From Spartobacteria bacterium (GTDB lineage: Bacteria > Verrucomicrobiota > Verrucomicrobiia > Chthoniobacterales > Chthoniobacteraceae), in contig JANXWU010000230.1 of assembly GCA_025350985.1 (NCBI GenBank), forward strand, positions 1 through 11,768: a DNA stretch of 11,768 nucleotides, read 5' to 3'. Below the pieces are notes generated by a model that was not told where the DNA came from, searched no databases, and saw nothing but the letters and a program-made list of their open reading frames with translations. Each line of letters starts with the position of its first letter. The stretch's first letter is position 1. The translations under genes and the position numbers were made by a program. Positions 702 to 4,912 of the stretch are shown here, piece after piece.

Positions 702-722
702 GGTCAAGCCGCCGTCTTGACC
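702..722 (-). terminator. Hairpin across the 3' end of topB
   Basis: GGTCAAG (702-708) and CTTGACC (716-722) pair perfectly around a 7-nt loop, and the topB stop codon (704-706) lies in one arm. It is placed where a transcript end or 3' stabilising structure would be. On the minus strand no U-run follows, so it is not a classical intrinsic terminator. Confidence 0.3.
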
Positions 723-3178
723 GGACGAACGGCCTTGGGCTTCTTCTCCCGCGGCGCAAACTCGAACCCAACCTTGCCCGCTTCCAGCTTGAGAAAAGCC
801 GCGAACGCCCGCCCTTTTTTCGAAATGAATTTCGGCAGTAAATCAGTCTTACCCGTCGTGAGCATTTTCTTCACCTGCTCGGGCGCGATTTGCTTTTGCA
901 AAATGGTTTTGCCCATCCGCAGCGTGCAGGTTTTTTGGCCGCCGACCGCGTGCTCACAGGCAAAGGCGTTGTCGAGTTCATAGACTTGGCCCTTTTGACA
1001 AACCGGACACGGCGCGAGGGGCGTGAGCTTGGAAAAATCAATCGCCTCGCCCTCCTTCGCCTCCGAATTTTCAAAGTCGAACTTCGGCTTAAAATCTTCT
1101 CCGAGCGTGACGAGGGCGGAGAAGGCGCGGCCCATCTTGCTGCGGAATCCTTCCAGCGGGCCGAGACGTTTTTCGGTGAGCAGCGTGATGACTTCCTCGG
1201 GCGTGAATTGCCGCGACGCCATCGTTTTCCAAATGAGCAAACCGCACTGCTTGCACTCGAAGGTTTTGTAAGTCTCCTTGATCGGCCCGCCGCCGCACTT
1301 CGGGCACGGCGCTTCGATGGTCGCGTATTCGCCTTGAATCGTCTCGCCGCGGAAGCCCTTGACCTTATCGATGATTTCGCGCGTCAGCCCGCGAATCTGC
1401 TCCATGAACTGCGCGCGCCCGAGCTTCCCCTGCTCCATTTGTTTGAGCTTGAACTCCCACTCGCCCGTCAGTTCTGGTTTGCAAAGCACGTCGGTGCCGA
1501 GATTGCGCAGCAGCGTGATGAGCGACATCCCTTTCGCGCTCACGATCAACTCCCGGCCCTTGCGCTCGATGTAGCCTTCAAAAATCAGCCCCTCGATCAC
1601 CTGCGCGCGCGTCGCCGGAGTGCCGAGTCCGCGCTCGGCCATCGCCTCGCGCAGTTCTTCGTCATCGACGAGTTTGCCCGCGCCTTCCATCGCGGAAAGC
1701 AGCGTCGCTTCATTAAAACGCGCCGGCGGTTTCGTTTCGTTTTCCTTCACTTCAATCGCGAGCACGTTCGCGATTTCGCCCGGTGAGATCGGGACAATCG
1801 ACTCGTTTTCACCCGCCGCTTCTTTTCCATAAACGGCGAGCCAACCGGGATCGACGATGATTTTCCCGTCGGTTTTAAAAGCCTCGCCTTCGACGCGGGT
1901 GATGCGCGTGGTGACTTCAAATTGCGCCGCCGGAAAAAACACCGCGATGGTCCGCCGCGCCACCATGTCGAAAACTTTGCGCTCGAAATCGTCAAGGCCC
2001 GCCGCCGATTTTCCGGTCGGGATGATGGCGTGGTGATCGCTGACTTTGGCGTTGTTGAAGACGCGCTTGGTCGGAATGACCCAGCCGTTGCGGAGCGCCT
2101 TTTCGGCGTGGACCGAGAGCGACGAATCGTCAAAGCTTTTCAGCACGGTTTTCACCTGGCCGAGATTGTCCTCGGGCAAATAGCGCGAGTCGGTTCGCGG
2201 ATAGGTCAGTACTTTGTGTTTCTCGTAAAGCGCCTGCGCGAGTTGCAGCGTCCGCCGCGCGCTCAGGCCGAAGCGGCCATTCGCCTCCCGCTGCAAAGTC
2301 GTGAGGTCGTACAGCAGCGGCGACGCCTGCGTGGTCGGCTTTTTCTCCTCGGTGATGACGCCGGTCTTGCCGTCGCATTTCGCCTGAATCGCCTCGGCTT
2401 GTTCCCGATTCCAGATGCGTTCCGCGCGCGTATCTTCTTCGCCATCTTTCTTAAATTTCTCGTCAAACCAGCGTCCGCGATAACTGCCGGCTTTCACGCC
2501 GAAATCGCCGAACACTTCAAAATAGGTGCGCGGTTTGAACGAGCGGATTTTCTCCTCGCGCTCGGCAAGAATGGCGAGCGTCGGCGTCTGCACGCGACCT
2601 GCCGTCGTCTTTTGAAAACCACCCTCGCGCGAGTTGAACGACGTGAGCGCGCGCGTTGAATTGATGCCAACCAGCCAGTCGCTTTCGGCGCGGGACATGG
2701 CCGCGTCCGCCAGCGGTTGCATCGATTCGTCGCTCCGCAAATTCCGAAACGCCTCGCGAATCGCCTCGCTCGTCATCGATTGCAGCCAGAGCCGTTGCAG
2801 CGGCTTTTTCGAGCCGGTCCACTTGACGACGTTGCGAAAAATCAGTTCGCCTTCGCGCCCGGCGTCGCAGGCGTTGATCAGCTCCGTCACGTCCTTGCGC
2901 GCGATCAATTTTTTCAGCACCCGCAGCCGTCCCTCATTCCTCTCGATCGGCGTCAGGTCGAACTCCGGCGGCAGTACTGGCAGATTCTCCAGATTCCATT
3001 TCCCGCGTTTCACCTCGACGCCTTCCGGCGGCACGATCTCGACCAAATGACCCACCGCCGACGAGATGACAAACTGCTCGTTTTCGAAAAAATCCTTCTC
3101 GCGTTTGAACTTGCCCAGCACGCGCGCCAAGTCGGCGGCGACGCTGGGTTTTTCGGCGATGACGAGAGTTTTGCCCAT
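704..3178 (-). CDS. topB: DNA topoisomerase III (type IA)
   Basis: An 824-residue type IA topoisomerase that cuts one DNA strand through a tyrosyl-5'-phosphate link and passes a strand through the gap. It starts with the TOPRIM signature MGKTLVIAEKPSVA. The TOPRIM acidic motif reads CDAGREGE (104-111), so the usual DxDxE is DxGxE (D105, G107, E109), a form I recall in a branch of TopB proteins. The active site is HKVLTYPRTDS with nucleophile Y326. SDHHAIIPT (380-388) and GLGTPATRA (517-525) are further conserved segments. The tail holds two zinc-ribbon-like C-terminal repeats with C625/C628/C642/C645 and C724/C727/C741/C751. Each is followed by a GRAFxA segment of the Toprim_Crpt type, at 683 and 789. 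The ATG at 3178 has no Shine-Dalgarno. A 26-bp repeat arm ends 10 nt upstream of it. It lies 29 bp after the GxxExxY gene and probably shares a transcript with dprA. Confidence 0.96.
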   Translation of the reverse strand: MGKTLVIAEKPSVAADLARVLGKFKREKDFFENEQFVISSAVGHLVEIVPPEGVEVKRGKWNLENLPVLPPEFDLTPIERNEGRLRVLKKLIARKDVTELINACDAGREGELIFRNVVKWTGSKKPLQRLWLQSMTSEAIREAFRNLRSDESMQPLADAAMSRAESDWLVGINSTRALTSFNSREGGFQKTTAGRVQTPTLAILAEREEKIRSFKPRTYFEVFGDFGVKAGSYRGRWFDEKFKKDGEEDTRAERIWNREQAEAIQAKCDGKTGVITEEKKPTTQASPLLYDLTTLQREANGRFGLSARRTLQLAQALYEKHKVLTYPRTDSRYLPEDNLGQVKTVLKSFDDSSLSVHAEKALRNGWVIPTKRVFNNAKVSDHHAIIPTGKSAAGLDDFERKVFDMVARRTIAVFFPAAQFEVTTRITRVEGEAFKTDGKIIVDPGWLAVYGKEAAGENESIVPISPGEIANVLAIEVKENETKPPARFNEATLLSAMEGAGKLVDDEELREAMAERGLGTPATRAQVIEGLIFEGYIERKGRELIVSAKGMSLITLLRNLGTDVLCKPELTGEWEFKLKQMEQGKLGRAQFMEQIRGLTREIIDKVKGFRGETIQGEYATIEAPCPKCGGGPIKETYKTFECKQCGLLIWKTMASRQFTPEEVITLLTEKRLGPLEGFRSKMGRAFSALVTLGEDFKPKFDFENSEAKEGEAIDFSKLTPLAPCPVCQKGQVYELDNAFACEHAVGGQKTCTLRMGKTILQKQIAPEQVKKMLTTGKTDLLPKFISKKGRAFAAFLKLEAGKVGFEFAPREKKPKAVRPVKTAA

Positions 3179-3188
3179 GAGGAAAAGT

Positions 3189-3214
3189 GAATCTGGAACT
3201 CAGGAACTCAGGAA
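3189..3214. repeat. Left arm of the 26-bp inverted repeat bounding the GxxExxY gene
   Basis: These 26 bases are an exact inverted copy of 3632-3657. They contain the 8-bp unit GGAACTCA twice plus a partial third copy, preceded by GAATCT. The stop codon of the GxxExxY gene (3208-3210) lies inside this arm. The arm also sits 10 nt before the topB start, where it replaces any Shine-Dalgarno. Matching stops at once on the outer side. Confidence 0.9.
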
Positions 3215-3660
3215 TGGGAACGAGGAAAATCAATCGATCCCGGCTCGATGGGCCGCTCACGGCCCACGCGTTTGATCGTCAGCGGCATGGCGGCAAAATT
3301 AAACAGCAGGGCGTCCTGAAGGTTTGCGGCTTTGAGGTACGAACGGACGATGGAGAAATGAATGCGCTCCAATTCCGCCACCGCTTTCAATTCAACAACG
3401 AATAATCCTTCGACTAGAAAATCGAGGCGGTGTTCGCCAATCCCTCTTCCGCGATAAAACAACGGGAGTGTTTTTTGACGCTCGTAACGAACGCCTGTCA
3501 ACTCCAACTCGACCGCGAGAGCCGCTTCGTAGGCTGATTCCAAAAATCCCGGCCCGAGTTCGCGATGCACGGCGATGGCGGCGGCAATGATCCTGTCACT
3601 CCGATGCCTGTTCTGGATCTCTTCCGATTCTTTCCTGAGTTCCTGAGTTCCAGATTCCAT
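3208..3660 (-). CDS. GxxExxY protein (PDDEXK_3 nuclease-like fold)
   Basis: A 150-residue protein of the GxxExxY family. HRELGPGFLESAYEAAL (32-48) holds the naming residues G38, E41 and Y44. RLDFLVEG (D80) and VVELKAV (E90, K92) form the D...ExK core of the PD-(D/E)XK nuclease superfamily. SIVRSYLKAANLQDALLFNF (103-122) is the usual C-terminal signature. The family's role is not established; nuclease activity is inferred from the fold. The ATG overlaps the dprA stop as TAATG, suggesting translational coupling. Residues 2-10 (ESGTQELRK) are encoded by one repeat arm and the stop codon by the other, so the coding region fits exactly within the inverted repeat. The conserved part begins near residue 20, so the first residues are probably repeat-derived. 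A cassette inserted behind dprA is likely. Confidence 0.9.
   Translation of the reverse strand: MESGTQELRKESEEIQNRHRSDRIIAAAIAVHRELGPGFLESAYEAALAVELELTGVRYERQKTLPLFYRGRGIGEHRLDFLVEGLFVVELKAVAELERIHFSIVRSYLKAANLQDALLFNFAAMPLTIKRVGRERPIEPGSIDFPRSHS
3632..3657. repeat. Right arm of the 26-bp inverted repeat bounding the GxxExxY gene
   Basis: Exact inverted copy of 3189-3214 (26 of 26). On the minus strand it begins at the third base of the GxxExxY start codon's following residue and encodes ESGTQELRK. It lies immediately after the dprA stop codon, which marks the likely insertion point. Confidence 0.9.
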
Positions 3661-4757
3661 TAAAGAAGTTTCACAAAATGCTGGCCGGGCAGTTGTTTCA
3701 CTAGCCGTTTCATTTCAAGGGCGAGGAGCGTCGATGAGACTGTGGAGGTTGGCAAGCGGGTTTTGGAGATGATCGCGTCGATGGCTGTCTCGGAGTCGCC
3801 GATGGCGTCATACACCAGTTTCTCCTCGGGCTGGAGCGCATCGGCGCGCGGCGAGCTGGCGGTGAGTTTCGGCGTTTCGGGAAAAAGTGTCTGCATGTCA
3901 TCGACGATGTCGTTCGCGCTCATCACCAGTTTTGCGCCTTGTTGAATGAGGCGGTTCGAGCCCGCGCTGGTCGGGCGATCAATCGGTCCGGGCACCGCGA
4001 AAACATTGCGCCCCTGTTCGGCGGCTTGTCCGGCGGTGATCAGCGCGCCGCTGCCGAGACCGGCTTCGACCACCAGCACGCCGAAGCTCCAGCCGCTGAC
4101 GATCCGGTTACGCATCGGAAACGTCTGCGTGTCCGCTTTCACCTCCATCGAAAACTCGCTGACGACCGCCGCGCCCGACTCGACGATTTTCTCCGCGAGC
4201 CCGAGGTTTTCCTTCGGGTAGATATTTAGAAATCCCGAGCCGAGCACCGCGACCGTGCGACCTTTTGCCGCGAGCGCGCCCTGATGCGCCGCCGTGTCAA
4301 TGCCGCGCGCCAGTCCGCTGACCACCGTGAGGCCAGCGTAGGCGAGCTGATAGGAAAGTTTCTTCGTGCATTCGAGTCCGTAGTGCGAGGTCTGCCGCGA
4401 GCCGACGATGGCGATGCCGTGATGATCGCGGTCCGTCAGCGTGCCCCAGACGTAAAGCACGATTGGCGGGTTGTGGATTTCGCGCAGCAGCTTGGGATAC
4501 TCCGGCGATTCCTGCGTGATGACGTGCGCGCCAAAGTCCGCGACACGTTTCAGTTCGGCTTCGAGATCAACGTGCTTCTCCCAGCCTGCGACGTTTTCCG
4601 CAACCTCGTTGCCGATGCCATCGACCGTGCGCAGTTCGCTCGCGCGCGCGACCAGAATCCGCTGCGGGGTTTCGAAAACTTCGAGCAGATTCCGCAACCG
4701 CACCGGCCCCATTTTCGGAACCATATTCAGCGCGATGCAAGCCTCGGTGTGCGTCAC
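3660..4757 (-). CDS. dprA: DNA-processing protein DprA (Smf)
   Basis: DprA binds incoming single-stranded DNA and loads RecA during natural transformation; it is also widespread in species not known to be competent. This 365-residue protein has the full layout. It begins with a helix-hairpin-helix-type N-terminus (ALNMVPKMGPVRLRNLL, 9-25). The Rossmann-like core carries VGSR (118-121), SGLARGID (147-154), FPMRNRI (213-219), EAGLGSGALITAG (231-243), VPGP (255-258) and GSNRLIQQGA (266-275). A DprA winged-helix domain fills about 310-365. The start codon is GTG: an in-frame TAG lies four codons upstream, and the next ATG (M12) would break the conserved N-terminal helix. No Shine-Dalgarno is visible. 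The stop overlaps the ATG of the GxxExxY gene by one base. A palindromic repeat lies 37 bp upstream. Confidence 0.95.
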   Translation of the reverse strand: MTHTEACIALNMVPKMGPVRLRNLLEVFETPQRILVARASELRTVDGIGNEVAENVAGWEKHVDLEAELKRVADFGAHVITQESPEYPKLLREIHNPPIVLYVWGTLTDRDHHGIAIVGSRQTSHYGLECTKKLSYQLAYAGLTVVSGLARGIDTAAHQGALAAKGRTVAVLGSGFLNIYPKENLGLAEKIVESGAAVVSEFSMEVKADTQTFPMRNRIVSGWSFGVLVVEAGLGSGALITAGQAAEQGRNVFAVPGPIDRPTSAGSNRLIQQGAKLVMSANDIVDDMQTLFPETPKLTASSPRADALQPEEKLVYDAIGDSETAIDAIISKTRLPTSTVSSTLLALEMKRLVKQLPGQHFVKLL

Positions 4758-4793: not shown

Positions 4794-4900
4794 GTAGCAC
4801 AGCCTTCCAGGCTGTGGGGGGAGCCGGGCATCCTGCCTGCCGATGCACCGGAACGCAGGCTAGAAGCCTGCTCGCCGCACACGCTGGAAGCCTGTGCTAC
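4794..4900. repeat. 107-bp palindromic element, GCAGGC repeat copy 2
   Basis: The outer ends are imperfect inverted repeats: GTAGCACAG-CTTCCAG-type sequence at 4794-4816 against CACGCTGGAAGCCTGTGC at 4880-4897. Inside, GCCGGGCATCCTGCCTGC (4823-4840), 14 nt, then GCAGGCTAGAAGCCTGC (4855-4871) repeat the two motifs of 590-642 in inverted orientation, the second with 16 of 17 bases alike. It fills the 155-bp gap between the hydrolase stop and the dprA start. It could fold in the RNA if the two genes are co-transcribed. No coding potential is seen. Confidence 0.75.
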
Positions 4901-4912
4901 GGGCGCGCGGCT

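Follow-up and report, generated by a model that had tools for sequence, protein, structure and literature searches.

A GxxExxY gene framed by inverted arms of tandem units: a candidate miniature mobile cassette recurring in bacteria and archaea

A GxxExxY gene lies between dprA and topB inside a perfect 26-bp inverted repeat, and we consider it probable that this unit of about 470 bp is a miniature mobile or selfish cassette, built of inverted arms of tandem 8-bp units around a PD-(D/E)XK gene that is matched to the arms. Observed directly were the layout and its recurrence, the match between protein and arm, scattered copies lacking the gene, empty sites, and conservation of the catalytic residues. 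The window (the whole stretch of DNA analysed, 11,768 nucleotides) corresponds to contig 92 in a draft genome of 2.74 Mb, 88% complete. Its relevant features are the following:

704 to 3178, minus strand: topB, intact, downstream neighbour of the GxxExxY gene; it abuts or overlaps dprA in six relatives.
3179 to 3188, minus strand: 10 nt rich in pyrimidines that separate the arm from the topB ATG, a putative part of the element.
3189 to 3214, minus strand: 3' arm, 26/26 inverted match, holding the TGA stop of the GxxExxY gene.
3208 to 3660, minus strand: GxxExxY gene, 150 aa, PD-(D/E)XK family PF13366 / TIGR04256, with D80, E90, K92 and E41 present.
3632 to 3657, minus strand: 5' arm in the reading direction of the gene, GAATCTGGAACTCAGGAACTCAGGAA, 26/26 inverted match, encoding codon 2 into codon 10.
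3655 to 3662, minus strand: dprA-side junction, TAATGGAA.
3660 to 4757, minus strand: dprA, intact, upstream neighbour of the GxxExxY gene.

The original prediction had described perfect 26-bp inverted arms containing a tandem 8-bp unit, one arm encoding residues 2-10 and the other supplying the stop codon, with the start codon of the gene overlapping the dprA stop, and all of this was borne out. The arms (3189-3214 and 3632-3657) are identical in inverted orientation at 26 of 26 positions, lie 417 nt apart and read GGAACTCA-GGAACTCA-GGAA. Arm 3632-3657 starts at codon 2 and ends inside codon 10, the TGA (3210-3208) falls inside arm 3189-3214, and start codon and dprA stop overlap in TAATG. 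The flank match score of the cassette was 26, compared to 14.5 for the best of 200 shuffles. The sole ORF of at least 80 aa wholly within the unit encodes the 150-aa GxxExxY protein, and profile searches revealed no transposase family match in the cassette. ATGG is present at the dprA-side junction (3655-3662) and again at the topB start (3178-3175), which is compatible with a 4-bp target duplication, as yet unproven. Stretches similar to the one at 3179-3188 were seen by eye on the outer side of several other dyads, suggesting that it came with the element.

The window protein is a clear member of the GxxExxY/PDDEXK_3 family (TIGR04256, 119.2 bits vs. a cut-off of 35; PF13366, 115.8 bits vs. 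a cut-off of 22); these family models supply a name, not a function. Residues D80, E/D90, K92 and E41 were intact in all of the 173 aligned rows (two duplicates included), both in the 141 armed rows and in the 32 without arms, which argues for retention of the nuclease reaction in GxxExxY proteins. A profile search gave no PDB relative of the window protein. No paper joining the GxxExxY family to repeats was found in a literature search that mostly did not cover subscription journals, so an earlier description is possible; in the literature found, the name occurs only in passing. Three loci (L064, L091 and L115, in genomes G011, G028 and G002) encode a tandem pair of GxxExxY domains in one frame of 308-388 aa.

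Five GxxExxY genes were found in the window's own genome and all five lie between inverted arms, each scoring above its 200 shuffles (the weakest cassette, C188, scored 15.5 vs. 15.0 in the shuffles). Their arms differ: cassettes C92 and C38 have GGAAnnCAGGAAnnCAGGAA in common, with one change in one C38 arm, while the units of the other three are CGCAGAG, GCGACGAAC and CACGGAG. The search of the own and related genomes gave 109 GxxExxY matches, from which 13 weak or partial ones were left out; 77 of 94 loci from these genomes reached p ≤ 0.005 in the arm test. A second set of 81 loci, of which 65 passed the same threshold, consisted of the 80 best among at least 563 relatives in public genomes plus one locus from IMG/VR. 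By record title, these 81 loci belong to Planctomycetota, Thermodesulfobacteriota, Chloroflexota, Bacteroidota, Nitrospirota, Acidobacteria, cyanobacteria, spirochaetes and two archaea, among others; within the best 80 of at least 563, the closest named relatives of the window protein come from Verrucomicrobiota and include several Udaeobacter or Chthoniobacterales.

Inverted arms (score ≥15) were present at 127 of 164 distinct full-flank GxxExxY loci, bacterial and archaeal, and the remaining 37 showed no arms by this test. Three duplicate or overlapping loci (L115/L057, L131/L037 and L160/L041) were removed before the count of 164; some duplicates are retained in the arm tests of 94 and 81 loci, the arm-protein identity bins, the tree and the 173 rows. 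Sham frames of equal length within those loci had arms in 11 of 1765 cases (4/716 and 7/1049), and dprA genes used as a control had none (0/26). When left and right flanks were paired across different loci, 91 of 1433 pairs scored ≥15, because arm types are common to several loci. The median outer span of the cassettes was 470 bp (n = 132), and their arms are tandem units of 8-10 bp. The original prediction had named other GxxExxY genes with the same arms as an outcome that would support it. The presence of arms held for most of the loci tested; their sameness did not, each protein clade tending to have its own unit, and a single universal arm for all GxxExxY genes was consequently rejected. 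There was also no support for phages or plasmids as the main carriers (one relative among 59 IMG/VR pattern matches; 7 of 72,556 plasmid records matching the window protein), in searches that reach close relatives best.

The arm unit followed the protein and not the genome. Protein and arm similarity were correlated over 137 distinct loci (Mantel rho 0.344), a value reached in none of 1000 permutations (null maximum 0.081). On the protein tree (139 rows), in which few columns were available and many forks stay open, arm type changed 28 times, compared to a minimum of 68 in 300 shuffles, and the AGGAA type of the window changed three times (shuffled minimum 15). These analyses took loci with an arm score ≥14 (143 of 175 reach it, 139 were used) and omitted L091, L115, L064, L165 and L105, which have double domains or doubtful arms. 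Genome of origin did not cluster on the tree (65 changes vs. a shuffled mean of 64.3; 75 rows, 34 genomes), and it was therefore rejected as the source of arm similarity. The AGGAA type is found in Verrucomicrobiota, Planctomycetota, Thermodesulfobacteriota and Wallbacteria. At 50-70% protein identity, arm similarity climbs from 0.25 to 0.37-0.46, with 32-35% identity at third codon positions and scores of 0.24-0.30 for the sequence outside the arms (0.24 in distant pairs). The arm similarity thus exceeds what leftover neutral resemblance would give. With outer flanks near baseline and arms clearly above it, selection or co-evolution probably keeps the arms; that the unit is inherited as a whole remains part of the explanation, the two being incompletely separated here.

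Arms were also scattered away from GxxExxY genes. In the own genome, the 20-nt arm core gave 28 matches (some overlapping) at up to two mismatches and its reversed pattern gave none. A looser arm pattern matched 59 sites, of which 55 lie beyond the C92 and C38 cassettes; 28 of the 59 have the C92-type dinucleotide and 25 the C38-type. In the own-genome stretches 19 dyads could be paired, 17 of them gene-less, with loops of 12-285 bp. A stop ending an open frame of at least 100 codons lay within -10 to 25 bp of the edge in 10 of these 19 dyads, compared to 368 of 3005 random placements (open frames, not annotated genes). The scattered copies are extragenic inverted doublets, as judged from open frames and by eye.

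Over 54 genomes the arm pattern gave 751 matches, a sum that counts the cassettes' own arms, compared to 5 for the reversed pattern. The six genomes with a known window-type gene have 59, 153, 254, 35, 10 and 5 copies and surpass the remaining 48 (Mann-Whitney p 1e-4), in which the pattern is mostly rare; exceptions with many arms in which a window-type gene was not found are G018 (87), G025 (37), G016 (27), G001 (24) and G004 (17). The GCGAAG-type pattern matched 11 of the 54 genomes, including the two that have a gene of this type (G004, 10 matches; G022, 3), with further matches in G016 (5), G033 (4) and G043 (3), 11 in G003 that form one tandem run, and single matches in others; its reversed control gave 5 matches, all in G005. 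In 18 public genomes, the 11 with an AGGAA cassette have 1-153 copies of AGGAA-type arms (one of these genomes is apparently G013), and the seven with non-AGGAA cassettes have 10, 0, 0, 11, 0, 0 and 0. This scatter of gene-less copies suggests that the replicating unit may be the dyad, the gene being one of its fillings.

Repeats of other kinds were seen along the way. Downstream of topB, the window contains a long imperfect palindrome at 357-535 (GTCTAAAAAGT...CTCCAAAGCG...); since a similar stretch was seen by eye next to an arm in L006, the palindrome may itself be a scattered repeat. A palindromic stretch upstream of dprA (4795-4910; AGCCTTCCAGGCTG ... GGAAGCCTGTGCTAC, by eye) has similar words at 580-690. 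The loops of some gene-less dyads in L027 and L028 contain words of another repeat (GTCATTCTGAGCG...GAATCTC), that is, nested repeats by eye. Beside the C38 cassette, dyad arms form a head-to-tail array that repeats roughly every 124 bp (L004:1860-2142). About 30 bp beside the G023 cassette (L038:2964-2997) have dozens of matches in G008 and further ones in G001 and G013, and may be a further repeat family. Finally, inverted repeats of another kind flank two of the three own-genome Y1_Tnp genes (L235, AGCCCTGTAAGGGCG; L237, CCGGTAGGGATGGC).

Comparison of orthologous junctions revealed sites with and without the cassette. At 29 dprA loci of relatives, none of the fetched stretches contained a GxxExxY gene, and topB was the next gene in 23. 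The dprA-topB gap was -1 to 2 bp in six of these 23, vs. 481 bp in the window, and the empty sites anticipated by the original prediction were thereby found. Both neighbouring genes are intact and the cassette is absent in relatives, in agreement with a discrete unit harmless to dprA and topB; the outcome named as refuting, arms and gene kept in all relatives and none elsewhere, did not occur. In G001 the two genes overlap (TTTAATGGG), which may be the ancestral state. In G008 a gene-less insert of 101 bp occupies the junction, its units being of another arm type (by eye).

Presence and absence were seen at three more junctions. The cassette of G040 (L100) occupies 454 bp between aligned flanks, where G056 has 30 bp of unrelated filler; that of G052 (L065) occupies 474 bp, where G042 has 23 bp of unrelated filler. 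The cassette of G023 (L038) is present at the same site in G013, showing that such units can be stable and inherited, and the site is short in G018. The short site of G018 has one AGGAA word, which could be a cassette remnant; other repeats occupy this site in G001 and G008. These three further sites are too diverged to show a target-site duplication. Any single case of presence and absence may be read as gain or as loss.

The layout was not confined to GxxExxY genes. In a sample of 30 PF05635 loci (23S rRNA intervening-sequence / four-helix-bundle family; L257-L286, one top locus per genome), 22 of 27 with full flanks lie between inverted arms. These arms are tandem units of 7-9 bp and are unlike GxxExxY arms (0.03% of cross pairs similar; L280 and L286 omitted from the arm comparison), and the correlation between protein and arm over 24 loci was reached by 1 of 2000 permutations. 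PF05635 proteins are not known to be nucleases. The cassette layout is thus more general than GxxExxY, which widens the finding and weakens the claim that it is driven by the nuclease: the nuclease may not be the mover, and cutting by the encoded protein may be dispensable.

In the mechanism we favour for a mobile cassette, several copies of the protein would bind the tandem units of both arms, bridge the cassette ends and then cut there or nearby. The dyad would thereby move, or be copied, into intergenic gaps, often directly after a stop codon, and the protein may also act in trans, on dyads that share its unit but lack the gene. A free-standing homing endonuclease is likewise a lone nuclease gene that spreads, although the sequence matched in the present case is the element's own arms and not an empty allele. 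A homing variant fits much of the same evidence. In it, a host process would spread the dyads, the nuclease would cut gene-less dyads of its own type, and repair from a gene-bearing copy would fill them, making the protein a homing endonuclease and not a transposase. In its favour, gene-bearing and gene-less dyads of one genome have the same arms, and gene-less inserts of other arm types (by eye) occupy the same junctions in relatives (dprA-topB in G008, the L038 site in G001). However, the closest relatives have no dyad at all at dprA-topB, which makes direct insertion of the whole unit at least as simple. We regard homing as unlikely.

We think it less probable still that other machinery (a RAYT, an IS element or replication slippage) moves the cassette, with the GxxExxY gene as a passenger carried along or kept for another role. 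The PF05635 genes with the same layout, the three Y1_Tnp matches in the own genome and the genomes rich in arms in which no window-type gene was found speak for a passenger; against it, arm sequence goes with the GxxExxY protein, even between phyla, rather than with the genome, and the four arm patterns searched are absent around the three own-genome Y1_Tnp genes, two of which (L235 and L237) have other inverted repeats. On that result (0 of 4 patterns), RAYT was rejected as the obvious mover. Closely spaced dyads would be expected to form long hairpins and, as shown above, dyads lie near stops of long frames more often than random placements do (10/19 vs. 368/3005), as if the arms were 3'-end hairpins and the protein a structure-specific processing enzyme with no mobility involved. 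Such a regulatory or RNA-processing role is very unlikely given cassettes present and absent at orthologous junctions, different arms on paralogues within one genome and the same arm type on proteins from different phyla. Chance or an ordinary terminator is hardly credible: nothing was found in its favour, and the shuffle, sham-frame and dprA controls contradict it.

The mobile cassette resembles several known systems in part. REPINs are short extragenic inverted doublets scattered in a genome, each group with a cognate RAYT protein (PMC3116915), and GxxExxY arms are likewise scattered as inverted doublets tied to a cognate protein. By contrast, the GxxExxY protein belongs to the PD-(D/E)XK nucleases and is not a tyrosine transposase, its gene lies inside a dyad, and the arms are tandem 8-10-bp units, whereas REPs are described as palindromes tagged with GTAG (PMC3733652). 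The best reading is of a cassette REPIN/RAYT-like in logic and unrelated in protein and repeat. The Coxiella 23S intervening sequence is a 428-nt unit with one small ORF and terminal inverted repeats, termed a selfish element; its origin was called unclear, and mobility by its own ORF was proposed (PMC4990558). The GxxExxY cassette shares the small size, the single ORF and the inverted ends with these S23/PF05635 units, but its protein is unrelated, it lies between dprA and topB instead of in rRNA, and its arm sequences differ. With MITEs and insertion sequences it shares terminal inverted repeats and the occurrence of gene-bearing and gene-less versions with the same ends; unlike them, it encodes no known transposase, only the PD-(D/E)XK ORF. 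By the features tested, the cassette belongs to neither REPIN/RAYT nor the 23S intervening sequences, and a recurring cassette with protein-matched ends points to an undescribed class of tiny selfish element.

A broader reading is attractive, though we hold it tentatively and at slightly short of an even chance. GxxExxY proteins would be the enzymes of undescribed miniature mobile elements that span phyla of bacteria and archaea, PD-(D/E)XK proteins that read a clade-specific code of tandem units in their own ends and mobilise themselves and gene-less dyads. Such a class would amount to a second REPIN/RAYT-like world, descended from another enzyme fold and paralleled by the rRNA intervening sequences, which share its architecture. 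If true, the widespread GxxExxY family would gain both a function and its natural substrate, a large group of the short repeats scattered through environmental genomes would be accounted for, and the numerous natural pairs of protein and arm would provide a protein-to-DNA specificity code. The old question of what mobilises the small ORF-bearing intervening sequences of 23S rRNA also becomes testable; their protein family here has the same architecture with other arms.
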